Origin: Acidobacteriota bacterium
Lineage (GTDB): Bacteria; Acidobacteriota; Thermoanaerobaculia; Thermoanaerobaculales; Sulfomarinibacteraceae
Reading direction: 5' to 3'
DNA: 61,684 bases
NCBI GenBank assembly: GCA_015493585.1
Contig: WGCW01000062.1
Location: 1 to 61,684, forward strand
The position numbers were made by a program, and so were the translations under genes. Positions 285 to 9,599 of the stretch are shown here, in pieces (within the stretch, counting starts at the first letter, position 1; the number at the start of each line of letters is the position of its first letter). Under the pieces are notes generated by a model. It was not told the DNA's origin, ran no database searches, and saw only the letters and a list, made by a program, of their open reading frames with translations.

Positions 285-1862
285 TTACGATGGCGCTGGT
301 GGTAGGACGATTTCGAGCACCTTCGTCAAAGCCGCAAGATCGGACAGAGCAAGGTCCACCTCATCCCTAAGCTCTGCGGTACGTTCGTGGACAATGCAGA
401 CGCTCCCACAGCCCGCATCGCGAGCAGCCTCAAGGTCGTAGCGCGAATCACCGACGGCGAGACAGGCTTCGGGATCGACGCCGAGCCTCGAACAGGCCTC
501 CACAAGCGGCGCGCCGGACGGCTTGTACAAGCCGGAATCGCGAGTAAGCACCACGTCGAACGCCAGGCCGAACTTCTCGAGCAAGATCGACGTGTTGGCC
601 CATGTGTTGTTCGTGACGAGTGCGGTGCCAAACCGCCGAGCGGCGAGCGCGGCAAGCAGGTCATGAACGCCCGGCTTGAGTGTCGCGCGTTGCGTTGCGT
701 CGCGTTCGATCGCCTCGAGCTCAGCCCAGGCCCGCTGCCGCTTGCCGGCGGGAAGCGCCTCGATGCCATCGATGAGCGAAGGCCCCTCCACTCCAAGCGC
801 GCGGCGGATCGCCGGCCAATCGTACGGTGAATCGATCAAGGTACCGTCCATGTCAAAGAGGACGGCACGGATCCCATCGAGCGCATCCGCGCGGAGGATC
901 TCGTCTCGTGGGAACCGGGGAACGGTTGCACACCCAGGTTGCCCCTCCCGTGCCTCCCCGATCCATGCGAGAGGCACACCGAGCCGGGTCAGGACAGCCT
1001 CCACCTCCGGCTTCGAGGACTGGCAGCACCCGATCAGCAACCCGCCAGAACCGATCAGCCCAAGCGGATCCATACCGAAAAGACGGCAGACATGCCGGGT
1101 ACTCTCCAAGATCGGGATGGCGCCAGGATCGGCGTCGATGGCACAGCCTGAGGCCGCACCCAGCTCATGGAGCGCCTCGCCCACGCCACCTTCCGTAACG
1201 TCGTGGAGCGCCACAACTCCCGGAACAGCCGCCAACGCCAGCGCCGGCTCAACCACGGAGATCCAGTCGGCTTCCAGGATCGCGTTGACCTGGGTCAACT
1301 CCTCGACGGGAACGGGCGAGGCAACCCGTTCGCCGAACCGTGCCAGGAGGATTGCGGTTCCCTCGAGCCCGGCCCACCCGGCAAAACCAACGTGATCCCC
1401 GGGAGCCAGACCGCCCGTCACGATGGCGCGTTCCTGCACCGGTCCAAGCATCGTTCCAACGATCACGCCGTGGCTAAGACCCGGGGTCACCTCGGTGTGA
1501 CCGCCGATCAGTGTCACGCCGAGCTGCTGGCACGCCGCAACGATCTCGTCGAGCAGTGCGCCAATGGAGGCCTCATCCGCCTCGCCGGGCGCGATCAACA
1601 TCACGACGGTCATCAGTGTTGGCCGGGCACCGCGTACCGCGATGTCGTTGGCGTTGACCTGAACGGTGAGCCGGCCCGCGTCGTGGCTGGTGAAGGAAAC
1701 CGGATCGGAAGCCACGGCCCAGAGCTGGCCGCCGATACGAACCAGCGCTGCATCCTCTCCGCACGCGGGCCCTAGCTCGACCTCCGGCGGCATCACACTG
1801 GCGAGGTGGCGGGAGATGAGCTCCCACGGTACCTTGCCCGGCGGCAACCGCCGTTCCCTCAC
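285..1862 (-). CDS. AIR synthase-like / HAD phosphatase fusion protein
   Basis: A 525-residue two-domain protein. Residues about 1-325 look like the AIR synthase (PurM/ThiL/HypE/SelD) superfamily: GPACGEDAAL (31-40), VNANDIAVRGARP (69-81) and LIGGHTEV (118-125) sit where that family binds ATP and phosphate. Residues about 331-525 are a HAD hydrolase of phosphoglycolate-phosphatase type: FDMDGTLIDS (336-345) carries the two catalytic aspartates, LVTNNT gives motif II, KPSG the motif III lysine and VGDSRYDLEAARDAG motif IV. The GTG start overlaps the stop of the upstream dehydrogenase gene by four bases (GTGA), so the two are probably translated together. Substrates of both halves are unknown; one domain may make a phosphorylated intermediate that the other handles, but that is inference. 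It lacks the Cys/Sec motif of SelD and the C-terminal Cys of HypE. Confidence 0.85.
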   Translation of the reverse strand: MRERRLPPGKVPWELISRHLASVMPPEVELGPACGEDAALVRIGGQLWAVASDPVSFTSHDAGRLTVQVNANDIAVRGARPTLMTVVMLIAPGEADEASIGALLDEIVAACQQLGVTLIGGHTEVTPGLSHGVIVGTMLGPVQERAIVTGGLAPGDHVGFAGWAGLEGTAILLARFGERVASPVPVEELTQVNAILEADWISVVEPALALAAVPGVVALHDVTEGGVGEALHELGAASGCAIDADPGAIPILESTRHVCRLFGMDPLGLIGSGGLLIGCCQSSKPEVEAVLTRLGVPLAWIGEAREGQPGCATVPRFPRDEILRADALDGIRAVLFDMDGTLIDSPYDWPAIRRALGVEGPSLIDGIEALPAGKRQRAWAELEAIERDATQRATLKPGVHDLLAALAARRFGTALVTNNTWANTSILLEKFGLAFDVVLTRDSGLYKPSGAPLVEACSRLGVDPEACLAVGDSRYDLEAARDAGCGSVCIVHERTAELRDEVDLALSDLAALTKVLEIVLPPAPS

Positions 1863-6158: not shown

Positions 6159-7125
6159 GATCGTGACGCTGGCCATTGTGGCCCTCCTGACGGCAGCCGT
6201 TACAGTGGCGGGCCAGAAGGTGCTCGTCGAAGGGATCCTGGCCCGGGTCAACGACCGGATCATTACGATCAGCGATTTCAAAAAGAGGCTAGCTCAGGAG
6301 GTTGCACAGCTCCCCAAGAGGCTCACGCCCAAAGAATTCGATACGTTCGCCCATAAGCTCTTCGACTCGATGGTGGAGCAGGACATCCTTCTTGAGCGGG
6401 CCGCTGAGAAGAAGCTCACCGTTGACAAGAAGGACGTTGACCGGGCAATTGAGGCGCTCAAGAAGCGCAACCACCTGACGAGCGATCAGGCATTCAAGGA
6501 GGCTCTCAAGAGCGCAGGCTTGACGGAAGCGATGCTGCGCGAACGATACCGGGAAAACATGCTTGCCCAACGAGTACTCCAGTCGGAGATCAAGCCGAGC
6601 CAAATTACCACCGAGGAGTTGAAGCAGATCTACAAGAAGGAAAAGGACAAGTGGCGGCGTCCCGAGAAGGTCCATCTCGAACAACTCTTCTTCCCAGTTT
6701 CAGACAGCGCGAAGAATCGTCAGGAAGAGCTCAACCGCGTCCAGGGGCTGGTCACACGGGTCCGCCACGGTGCGGATCTCAAGGCCGAGGCGACCCTGGC
6801 CGGTGTGGCCATTCAAGATCTCGGCGAGATTCCGGTGTCGGATCTCCGCGCCCAGGTCCGGGATGCGCTGGAAGGGCTGAAGAACGGCCAGATTACGGAC
6901 CCGATCTCGACGGCGGGAGGTTTTCAGATCATCCGGCTGGTCAAACGGACGCCGGCCGGCTACCAACCGTTCGACCAAGTCGAGGAACAGATTCGGCGGG
7001 AGGTCTCCCAAAAGAAGTACAAGGAGCAGACCGACGGGTTGATCGAGAGCCTGAAGAAGCAGTACCTGGTCGAAGTTCATGAGGATCTTCTGGAAAAGGT
7101 GCTCAAAGGCGAGACCGATGGCTGA
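6142..7125 (+). CDS. SurA-like periplasmic chaperone/peptidyl-prolyl isomerase
   Basis: A 327-residue exported chaperone. After a cleavable signal (basic MRQR, hydrophobic core, AGQ), VEGILARVNDRIITISDFKK is the hallmark start of SurA-type N-terminal domains, followed by a helical region to about 170 and a parvulin domain at about 175-275 (EKVHLEQLFFPV, ISTAGGFQIIRLVKR). Likely role: escorting outer-membrane proteins, which fits the large barrel and secretin encoded in this window. Start at 6142 chosen because GGAGG lies six bases upstream; an in-frame ATG 15 bases earlier lacks this. It overlaps both neighbours, so the three-gene run 5292-8086 is one transcription unit. Confidence 0.88.
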   Translation: MRQRSKIVTLAIVALLTAAVTVAGQKVLVEGILARVNDRIITISDFKKRLAQEVAQLPKRLTPKEFDTFAHKLFDSMVEQDILLERAAEKKLTVDKKDVDRAIEALKKRNHLTSDQAFKEALKSAGLTEAMLRERYRENMLAQRVLQSEIKPSQITTEELKQIYKKEKDKWRRPEKVHLEQLFFPVSDSAKNRQEELNRVQGLVTRVRHGADLKAEATLAGVAIQDLGEIPVSDLRAQVRDALEGLKNGQITDPISTAGGFQIIRLVKRTPAGYQPFDQVEEQIRREVSQKKYKEQTDGLIESLKKQYLVEVHEDLLEKVLKGETDG

Positions 7126-8086
7126 GACACGCCTCTGGATCAAGGACCTTCGCCCGGGGAACGAGGTTTCCGAATCGTATGCGGTCCGCTCGGCCGATGT
7201 ACGCAAACGGCGTGGCGGCGGGAACTATCTCGCCCTGACCCTCGCCGACCGGACGGGGCAGGTCGCCGGGCTCGTGTGGGAAGGTGTGGACCGGATCGCA
7301 TCCGTGTGCCGGCCTGGGCGTGTCGTGCGCATCAAGGGACAGGTGCAACGCTACAATCAGCGGCTCCAGATCGTGATTCGCAGTGCGGAGCTCGTTCCCC
7401 AGGAGAAAATCGACGAGAGCGTCTACGTGCGAGCCTCGGAGATTGATCCGAACCTCCTTTGGGAGAGGCTGATGGGGCTGATCGAACACGTCAGCGATGA
7501 GCACCTGCGCCAGCTGCTCTACCGGATCTTCCAGGATCCTGATGTCGTTCAGCGGTTCCGTATCGCGCCGGCTGCTCGCTCGATGCACCATGCCTTCCGG
7601 TCGGGCCTGCTTGAGCACACCGTCTCGATGACGACGGCGGCCAAGACCCTCGCGGGGCACTACCGGCTGAACCAGGACCTCGTGACGGCCGGCGCGCTGC
7701 TCCACGATCTTGGAAAGATCTGGGAGCTGGAGTTGGGCCCCTCGATCGAATACACGGACGACGGCCGCCTCCTCGGACATCTCCCCATGGAGGTCCTGTA
7801 CGTTGAGAAGAAAATTGGGGAGCTCGCATCGTTTCCTCACGAGACGCGGCGCCAGCTCCTGCACATCCTGCTCGCTCACCATGGCGAGTACGCGTTCGGC
7901 TCACCACGCCGTCCCAAGACGCCAGAGGCGTTGCTCATTCACATGATCGATAACCTCGATGCCAAGATCTCCGGCATGCTCCAGGCCATCCACGACGGCG
8001 GCGAGACCCAGGAGGCTTGGACCGCCTACTCGCCGATACTTGAGCGCTATATCTACCGCCGGCGATTGGATGATGAGGACGAGTGA
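7118..8086 (+). CDS. YhaM-like 3'-5' exoribonuclease (OB fold plus HD domain)
   Basis: A 322-residue protein. Residues 1-95 form an OB-type nucleic-acid-binding fold (VRSADVRKRRGGGNYLALTL, RVVRIKGQVQRYN). Residues about 150-300 are an HD metal-dependent domain: H167, H196-D197 in LLHDLGK, then LLAHHGEYAFGSP and IDNLDAKI, a signature of the YhaM family. YhaM of Bacillus degrades RNA and single-stranded DNA from the 3' end. The ATG at 7118 overlaps the SurA stop by eight bases; an in-frame ATG at 7079 lies inside surA and is less likely. Its 3' end overlaps the convergent selenoprotein gene by 34 bases. Confidence 0.9.
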   Translation: MAETRLWIKDLRPGNEVSESYAVRSADVRKRRGGGNYLALTLADRTGQVAGLVWEGVDRIASVCRPGRVVRIKGQVQRYNQRLQIVIRSAELVPQEKIDESVYVRASEIDPNLLWERLMGLIEHVSDEHLRQLLYRIFQDPDVVQRFRIAPAARSMHHAFRSGLLEHTVSMTTAAKTLAGHYRLNQDLVTAGALLHDLGKIWELELGPSIEYTDDGRLLGHLPMEVLYVEKKIGELASFPHETRRQLLHILLAHHGEYAFGSPRRPKTPEALLIHMIDNLDAKISGMLQAIHDGGETQEAWTAYSPILERYIYRRRLDDEDE

Positions 8087-8316
8087 GCGTTTCCGCCCAC
8101 GCTTCGAATCTTCTCGATGATCTCGCGCGCTTCGGGGAAACGTCTGCTCTGATGCTTCGAGAAGATCAGACGGCCGTTGGCGATCACGTTGAACGCACCA
8201 CTTCCGCCGCGTACGAGCGTGGCGTGCTCTCCAAGTTGCCTCTCGATCTCGGCCGCCAAACTGGAGGCCCGGGGCCGATAGCTTCACACGACACAGTATT
8301 CAATGATGATATCCAC
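8053..8316 (-). CDS. SelT/SelW/SelH (Rdx) family selenoprotein, UGA = selenocysteine
   Basis: An 87-residue thioredoxin-like Rdx protein, missed by ordinary gene calling because codon 11 (8286-8284) is TGA. Reading from the GTG at 8316, which follows AAGGAGG by three bases, gives MDIIIEYCVVUSYRPRASSL, with the Rdx redox motif C8-V-V-U11. Beyond the UGA the frame stays open and matches the family: SLAAEIERQLGE, GSGAFNVIANGRLIFSK and RRFPEAREIIEKI. A hairpin can form about 10 bases after the UGA (CGGCC with GGCCG, inner GCC/GGC stem, loop UCCAGUUU), in the place of a bacterial SECIS. Its function is probably thiol redox, by family. It implies that the genome has selA, selB, selC and selD, none of which lie here. 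The tail (SSSSSNRRR) is low complexity and overlaps the yhaM-like gene. Confidence 0.88.
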
Positions 8317-8455
8317 GATGCCTCCTTGACGCCGCCGCCGGCGGCTGGCACCAGTGTAGCGTTCCCGTGGAGGATAGGCACGGCCCGGCGGCATGACCCA
8401 CACCCCAACGGCCTGGGCGTTTGCTCCGTATTGAGCAGAGGAAGAAGAAGAGGTG

Positions 8456-9091
8456 ATGGCGAAGAACCGTCTCAAGCTCGTCGCGTCGAATCGCGGGAAC
8501 CGGGAGCCCAAGCCGATGGATGACCGGGAGCTGGCCGAGGCTGCGAAGAACGGCGACGAAGAGGCGTTTGGAGCGCTCGTCGAGCGGTACGCGGGCGGGT
8601 TACACCGTGTCGTGTCACGAATGCTCGGTGACGAGGAGGAAGCGTGGGACGTGGTCCAAATGGCATGGCTGCGGGCGTGGCAACGGCTGGGGAAATACAA
8701 CCGCCGGTGGAGCTTTTCAACGTGGGTCTACCGCATCGCCACCAACCTTGCGATCGACGTGATCCGCGCCCGGTCAAGCCGGGAGCGCGCTCATCACGAG
8801 GGGGGCTCGGTGTGGCTCCGTCCCACCCCTGCACCGGATGGCTCGGCCGCGCTGGCCAACGAACGGGAGGTCGAGCAGGTTTTGAGCCGGCTCGTCTCCT
8901 GCTTGAGCCCCCAACAACGCGCAGCCTTCATCCTGCGCGAGGTCGAGGGCCTCGACACATCGGAGGTTGCGCGGGTGCTCGGGTGCTCAGCGGCGACAAT
9001 CCGCAACCACATCTTTCATGCCCGCCGGGCGCTCAGGAGGGAGCTCGAGCAAAGGTTCCCAGAGTACCTGCCTGGAAATGGGAGGGGCTAA
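8456..9091 (+). CDS. ECF-type RNA polymerase sigma factor
   Basis: A 211-residue sigma-70 family protein with region 2 at about 25-95 (EEAFGALVERYAGGLHRVV, WDVVQMAWLRAWQRLGKY, FSTWVYRIATNLAIDVIRAR) and region 4 at about 140-195 (LSPQQRAAFILREVEGLDT, EVARVLGCSAATIRNHIFHA). No region 3, as in the ECF group. It is followed after one base by a zinc-type anti-sigma gene and then by the whole secretion/pilus operon, so it probably controls that operon. ATG at 8456 preferred over the adjoining GTG; a purine-rich GAGGAAGAAGAAGAG lies upstream. Confidence 0.93.
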   Translation: MAKNRLKLVASNRGNREPKPMDDRELAEAAKNGDEEAFGALVERYAGGLHRVVSRMLGDEEEAWDVVQMAWLRAWQRLGKYNRRWSFSTWVYRIATNLAIDVIRARSSRERAHHEGGSVWLRPTPAPDGSAALANEREVEQVLSRLVSCLSPQQRAAFILREVEGLDTSEVARVLGCSAATIRNHIFHARRALRRELEQRFPEYLPGNGRG

Positions 9092-9092
9092 C

Positions 9093-9599
9093 ATGACCTG
9101 TGATCGATTTCTGGCGCTGATTGATGCGTATCTTGCCGATCAGCTCGACGGAGCGGAACGGGATGCCTGGAGGACTCATCTGGCCGCGTGTCCGGCATGC
9201 CGGCAGCGGGCCCTTGCCAAGGAACCAGCATTGATGTTTGCCGCCCTGCCGAAACGCGAGCCAAACGCGGCGGACATTTCTGCCTGTGCCAGCGGGGTGA
9301 GAAGCCTGATCCACCGGGACAACCTTGTTCACCGGCTCCACGTCCGCAGCCGGCGGTGGTTGGCCGCTGCGGCCACCGCCGTCATCATCCTGGGCGGTGG
9401 GCTCCTGTGGCATACCACACGCAGCCCGGAACCGAACCGCACCGCAGCTCGCCCGGCAACCCCCCAGGTTCAGATCACTGCGCCAGCGCCGGAGGTTGAC
9501 GTCGAAATGCCCGGAGATCATGTGCGAGTTTACCAGTTTGCGGTCGGTGGGGACGATATGGCCGTGACCTACGTCGTCAACCCCAGCATGGAGCTCTAA
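9093..9599 (+). CDS. Zinc-finger anti-sigma factor, single-pass membrane protein
   Basis: A 168-residue protein. Residues 1-45 form an anti-sigma domain with the ZAS motif H29-x3-C33-x2-C36 (HLAACPAC). A single membrane span lies at about 91-108 (AAAATAVIILGGGLLW). The C-terminal 55 residues, proline-rich at first, would be periplasmic and could sense an envelope signal. Start ATG at 9093 follows GGAGGGG and is one base after the sigma stop. The arrangement is a classic ECF/anti-sigma pair; the inducing signal is unknown. Confidence 0.88.
   Translation: MTCDRFLALIDAYLADQLDGAERDAWRTHLAACPACRQRALAKEPALMFAALPKREPNAADISACASGVRSLIHRDNLVHRLHVRSRRWLAAAATAVIILGGGLLWHTTRSPEPNRTAARPATPQVQITAPAPEVDVEMPGDHVRVYQFAVGGDDMAVTYVVNPSMEL

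Follow-up and report, generated by a model that had tools for sequence, protein, structure and literature searches.

A minus-strand frame in the 61,684-nucleotide stretch of Acidobacteriota DNA that we analyzed (here called the window) is very probably a functional gene for a SelW-like (Rdx) selenoprotein, a redox protein into which selenocysteine (Sec) would be inserted at an in-frame UGA through the action of SelB on a hairpin located shortly downstream (Table 1). A selenoprotein had been proposed here in an earlier note made from the DNA letters, and that interpretation is supported. Insertion of Sec at codon 11 is strongly supported by comparative sequence evidence, because the UGA is conserved, cysteine is the sole alternative at its column, the hairpin that follows it covaries and has a G-U loop, and the genome carries a complete insertion kit. 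The gene is a well-supported new member of the SelW-like family and not a new kind, since SelW-like CxxU proteins are already listed as a bacterial family in sections of PMC1794560, PMC2398784, and PMC13188914.

TABLE 1 Positions in the window of the putative selenoprotein gene, its signals, and its neighbors
Feature	Position	Strand	Details
SelW-like (Rdx) selenoprotein CDS (very probable)	8053..8316	-	GTG start, TAG stop (8055-8053); translated with TGA=U
In-frame TGA, codon 11, probably read as selenocysteine (CVVU)	8284..8286	-	TGA column conserved among homologues
Ribosome binding site AAGGAGG	8321..8327	-	4 nt upstream of GTG; read directly
Predicted bSECIS-like hairpin GGCCTCCAGTTTGGCGGCC	8251..8269	-	Own fold -9.5 kcal/mol; wobble-wobble covariation; loop codon AGT 8262-8260
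YhaM-like protein, OB-fold plus HD domain (context)	7079..8086	+	Pfam PF01336, PF01966
Divergent ECF sigma factor gene (context)	8453..9091	+	Pfam Sigma70_r2, r4_2

Reading frame, protein family, and predicted fold

The letters agree with the earlier description of a minus-strand frame that opens at a GTG preceded by AAGGAGG and runs through EYCVV into a TGA. From 8316 to 8053 the frame has no stop other than the codon 11 TGA before its TAG. Translated with TGA as U, it yields a product of 87 residues that begins VDIIIEYCVV-U-SYRPRASSLAAEIERQLGE..., with Sec at residue 11 and the CVVU motif at residues 8 to 11. Translation with table 11 ends at the TGA. As a selenoprotein gene truncated by the standard code after ten residues, it is a clean example. 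No minus-strand site ahead of the Rdx gene came out of a scan for promoters and terminators. The gene had been described as lying opposite yhaM, which holds for a 34-base tail-to-tail overlap (8053 to 8086); the other 230 bases lie between yhaM and the sigma factor gene.

The complete Rdx domain that had been claimed, with CxxU at the site of the redox pair, was recovered by the Pfam Rdx model (PF10262), which covers residues 3 to 71 with an E value of 1.1e-18 and 67.7 bits against a gathering cut-off of 22.6. TIGR02174 (CXXU_selWTH) also matched, giving 54.9 bits against its cut-off of 34.2. The top-scoring NCBIfam model was NF041051 (SelTWH_Campy, SelT/SelW/SelH family [seleno]protein), which aligned to residues 4 to 70 with 84.3 bits; this falls just below the curated cut-off of 88, so the protein was not assigned to that equivalog. 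A structure model built from nine aligned sequences, with Cys substituted for Sec, had a pLDDT of 84.7, with low confidence beyond about residue 70, and predicts a thioredoxin-like SelW fold. Its top 21 PDB matches were SelW-related or other Rdx bacterial proteins. Among these structures, the Cys-type bacterial SelW-related proteins 2fa8, 2p0g, 2obk, 2oka, 2ojl, and 3dex are alike in fold, with query TM-scores of 0.76 to 0.79 at 26 to 29% sequence identity. In the alignments with 2ojl and 2fa8 the motif falls at the same place, but those proteins have Cys where this one would have Sec. Mouse SelW (2npb) and human MIEN1/C17orf37 (2ljk) share the fold family, although the relationship is distant.

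Conservation of the UGA codon among relatives

Rdx matches were found in 52 of 59 relatives and in 117 of 396 genomes spread across the phylum. The codon at column 11 was read in 152 same-phylum matches, comprising 32 loci from the searches and 120 fetched stretches, and proved to be TGA in 141, TGC in 7, and TGT in 1, with the column not reached in 3. The earlier note had proposed alignment with homologues to see whether Sec or Cys occupies this position, and the 149 that reach it have TGA (141) or Cys (8). A cysteine stands three residues ahead of the TGA in 140 of the 141, the remaining one being cut by a contig edge. In the first 38 loci, TGA was at the same column in all 38 and the protein was conserved on both sides of it, in agreement with the claim that conserved protein continues past the UGA. 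One locus from a same-genus genome (L023) and one from the Acidobacteriota MAG JAADFN010000025.1 (L052) are the same gene, leaving 37 independent loci; that all of them keep the TGA and the flanking protein argues that the frame did not arise by chance. Comparison of 39 post-UGA codons with a congener gave a dN of 0.18 and a dS of 0.83, indicating purifying selection.

All eight Cys proteins continue differently beyond the motif, with RWLLRAAW or something similar, and represent another Rdx subgroup. The search query itself carried Cys at column 11, so Cys forms were not disfavored, with remote Cys-type Rdx proteins likely under-sampled. No Cys version of the present SelW-like subgroup occurred among the 152 same-phylum matches. 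Since the Cys proteins found belong to a different subgroup, Sec may be the ancestral and required form of this one, tying it to selenium in the phylum, a suggestion that we offer tentatively and rate as somewhat short of probable. If true, the subgroup would offer a way to study why certain proteins do not revert to Cys.

Selenium machinery in the source genome and across the phylum

The source genome, of which the window is contig C62, comprises 3.1 Mb in 194 contigs and is 99.6% complete. The earlier note had named selA, selB, selC, and selD as the genes to look for, and all four are present: selA on C1, selB on C102 as an open frame of 653 codons, the tRNA-Sec gene (selC) on C69 with anticodon TCA, confirmed by ARAGORN, and selD twice, on C16 and C116. 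Judged by this gene content, the genome should decode Sec. UGA-type Rdx is found in 109 of the 117 matched phylum genomes, and selB is found in 105 of those 109, compared with 151 of 287 other phylum genomes (Fisher p 3e-19, a test that ignores relatedness). The four UGA-type genomes without a selB match are MAGs with completeness of 90, 75, 64, and 75%. Eight genomes were Cys-only, six of them with selB.

A covarying hairpin after the UGA

The earlier note had proposed folding the bases after the UGA to look for a bSECIS, and a predicted bSECIS-like hairpin that covaries at wobble positions was found there, its loop 21 to 22 nt past the UGA. In its commonest version the hairpin occupies codons +5 to +11, counted from the UGA, and reads G-GCC-GCC, loop GGU-CU, G-GCG-GCC. 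The E. coli fdhF element likewise has a GGUCU loop, which is bound by SelB; in animal selenoproteins, the SECIS is located in the 3'-UTR. Three hairpin pairs link third codon positions, namely, +7/+9, +6/+10, and +5/+11. Pairing was observed in 131, 130, and 87, respectively, of 135 distinct sequences, versus 101, 107, and 57 after shuffling, which ignores relatedness. A fairer control is to ask how these pairs rank among every wobble pair in the same set of sequences; of the 136 tested in codons +3 to +20, covariation was highest for +6/+10, second for +7/+9, and third for +5/+11. At +7/+9, C-G is replaced by G-C in 16 sequences of five families; at +6/+10, C-G becomes T-A, G-C, or G-T in 17 sequences; and at +5/+11, G-C becomes A-T, C-G, T-A, or T-G in 29. 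The outermost pair, +5/+11, is the weakest, being unpaired in 48 of the 135. Codon choice in the loop is also skewed: at codon +8, Ser is encoded by AGU in 48 of 49 cases (versus 5.8% later in the same genes) and Gly by GGU in 53 of 62 (versus 16.3%). With covariation seen over this many distinct sequences, the bSECIS alignment is well supported for the SelW-like genes of a single phylum.

In the window copy the loop reads AGU UUG, and the stem is interrupted by a single U.C mismatch. The bSECIS limits given in a section of PMC13188914 are a loop of 3 to 9 nt with G in the first two places, a stem of 4 to 16 bp, a position 16 to 37 nt after the UGA, and a minimum free energy of -7.5 or lower. 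This copy falls within them, with a loop of GUU or AGUUU, seven pairs around one mismatch, a distance of 21 to 22 nt, and -9.5 kcal/mol. One finding speaks against the conserved stem: in this copy, the energetically best fold of the 45 bases downstream of the UGA is a different, longer hairpin (-18.1 kcal/mol). The foot of that alternative stem would presumably be covered by a ribosome positioned at the UGA. Folding z-scores of the 45 bases were weak (-1.04 for this copy, with a mean of about -1.6 over 38 loci), and the wobble-pair test was therefore used in place of free-energy folding. An Rfam search of the whole window at gathering thresholds gave no match.

Alternative readings and gene neighborhood

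Termination of the frame at codon 11 under table 11 is what a plain stop would give, the frame being then a decayed Rdx pseudogene or the result of a sequencing error. We rejected this reading, which appears extremely improbable, because 141 of 152 matches keep the TGA, and these come from numerous families and from assemblies made independently; the selection acting on the protein beyond the TGA and the lack of any other stop in the frame also argue against it. An open frame past the UGA cannot by itself distinguish Sec from another residue, such as Trp, inserted by a recoded or suppressor tRNA. This too was rejected and seems scarcely credible, given that the TGA is conserved, that Cys is the only alternative at the column, and that the hairpin covaries. 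Moreover, TGA ends 9 of the 17 window genes annotated by eye and is thus a usual stop here, and the genome encodes a tRNA-Sec with anticodon TCA along with selA, selB, and selD.

The neighborhood invites a different proposal about function, in which the Rdx selenoprotein is the redox sensor for the regulon of the divergent ECF sigma factor and a zf-HC2 protein. The sigma gene is divergent from the Rdx gene in the window and is followed by a zf-HC2 gene, and within the same family 9 of 11 loci have yhaM next to Rdx and 9 of 11 have the sigma gene there. In the 28 loci from outside the family, whose flanks covered roughly 1.5 to 3 kb, neither neighbor was found next to Rdx, and so the yhaM-Rdx-sigma order (7079 to 9599 in the window) may be plain inheritance. 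Gene order as a functional clue is kept only within the family, and we consider a sigma-linked sensor very unlikely.

For a functional SelW-like selenoprotein gene, the favored reading, SelB loaded with Sec-tRNA-Sec would bind the hairpin loop and bring selenocysteine to a ribosome positioned at the UGA. Fold and motif suggest a small thiol/selenol oxidoreductase of the thioredoxin fold, in which the C8/U11 pair may form and break a selenenylsulfide bond. A role in peroxide or thiol homeostasis would be a guess.

Relation to known bacterial selenoproteins

SelW-like proteins were among the bacterial selenoproteins listed in 2006 in a portion of PMC1794560 that also counts Acidobacteria selenoproteins and reports few or no Cys homologues of SelW-like proteins in Sec-containing organisms. 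Global Ocean Sampling data gave 427 Sec and 56 Cys forms of SelW-like proteins, according to part of PMC2398784. The bacterial SelW-like (SELENOW-like) selenoproteins of PF10262, as presented in parts of PMC1794560, PMC2398784 (Table 2), and PMC13188914, share with the present protein the Rdx domain, a CxxU in the N-terminal loop, a UGA followed by a bSECIS-like hairpin, and the Sec machinery. We see no difference of kind from them; the sequence is new and comes from an Acidobacteriota genome. It adds no new type of biology, SelW-like Sec proteins having been reported in 2006 (PMC1794560, in part). For most of these bacterial selenoproteins the substrates are unknown, as stated in a passage of PMC13188914. 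The program deep-Sep was run on an Acidobacteriota genome with three known selenoprotein genes, as described in part of PMC12013277. PMC5029168 had no passage on Acidobacteria or SelW, and none of the papers listed in our literature searches dealt with this particular gene.

Other selenium-related genes

An in-frame TGA occurs in one further gene, on contig C169 (13138 to 13536, minus strand), which encodes a PrxU-like peroxiredoxin with the sequence FTFVUPTE; in another copy, also on C169, the sequence is FTFVCPTE. The presence of this gene in the genome counts in favor of the selenoprotein reading of the Rdx frame. The best NCBIfam model for the UGA copy was NF040737 (PrxU), at 255 bits for a 133-residue piece, the cut-off of 270 applying to the whole protein. 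The peroxiredoxin UGA is followed by a hairpin whose loop region is GGUC. Formate dehydrogenase alpha (TIGR01591), sought in the genome as a further selenium user, was not found, two pieces scoring under the cut-off, and a genome search for tRNA 2-selenouridine synthase (TIGR03167) gave no match.

One frame in the window (285 to 1862, minus strand) combines AIR synthase-related domains with a HAD hydrolase domain and matches the selD model only weakly, at 46 bits. The selD on C16 (1014 to 3263 of locus L019, minus strand) is fused, in one open frame, behind a class V aminotransferase (cysteine desulfurase-like) domain. The selD on C116 (1375 to 3887 of locus L020, minus strand) is fused behind a Se_S_carrier domain (DUF3343, PF11823) and adjoins a second class V aminotransferase gene.
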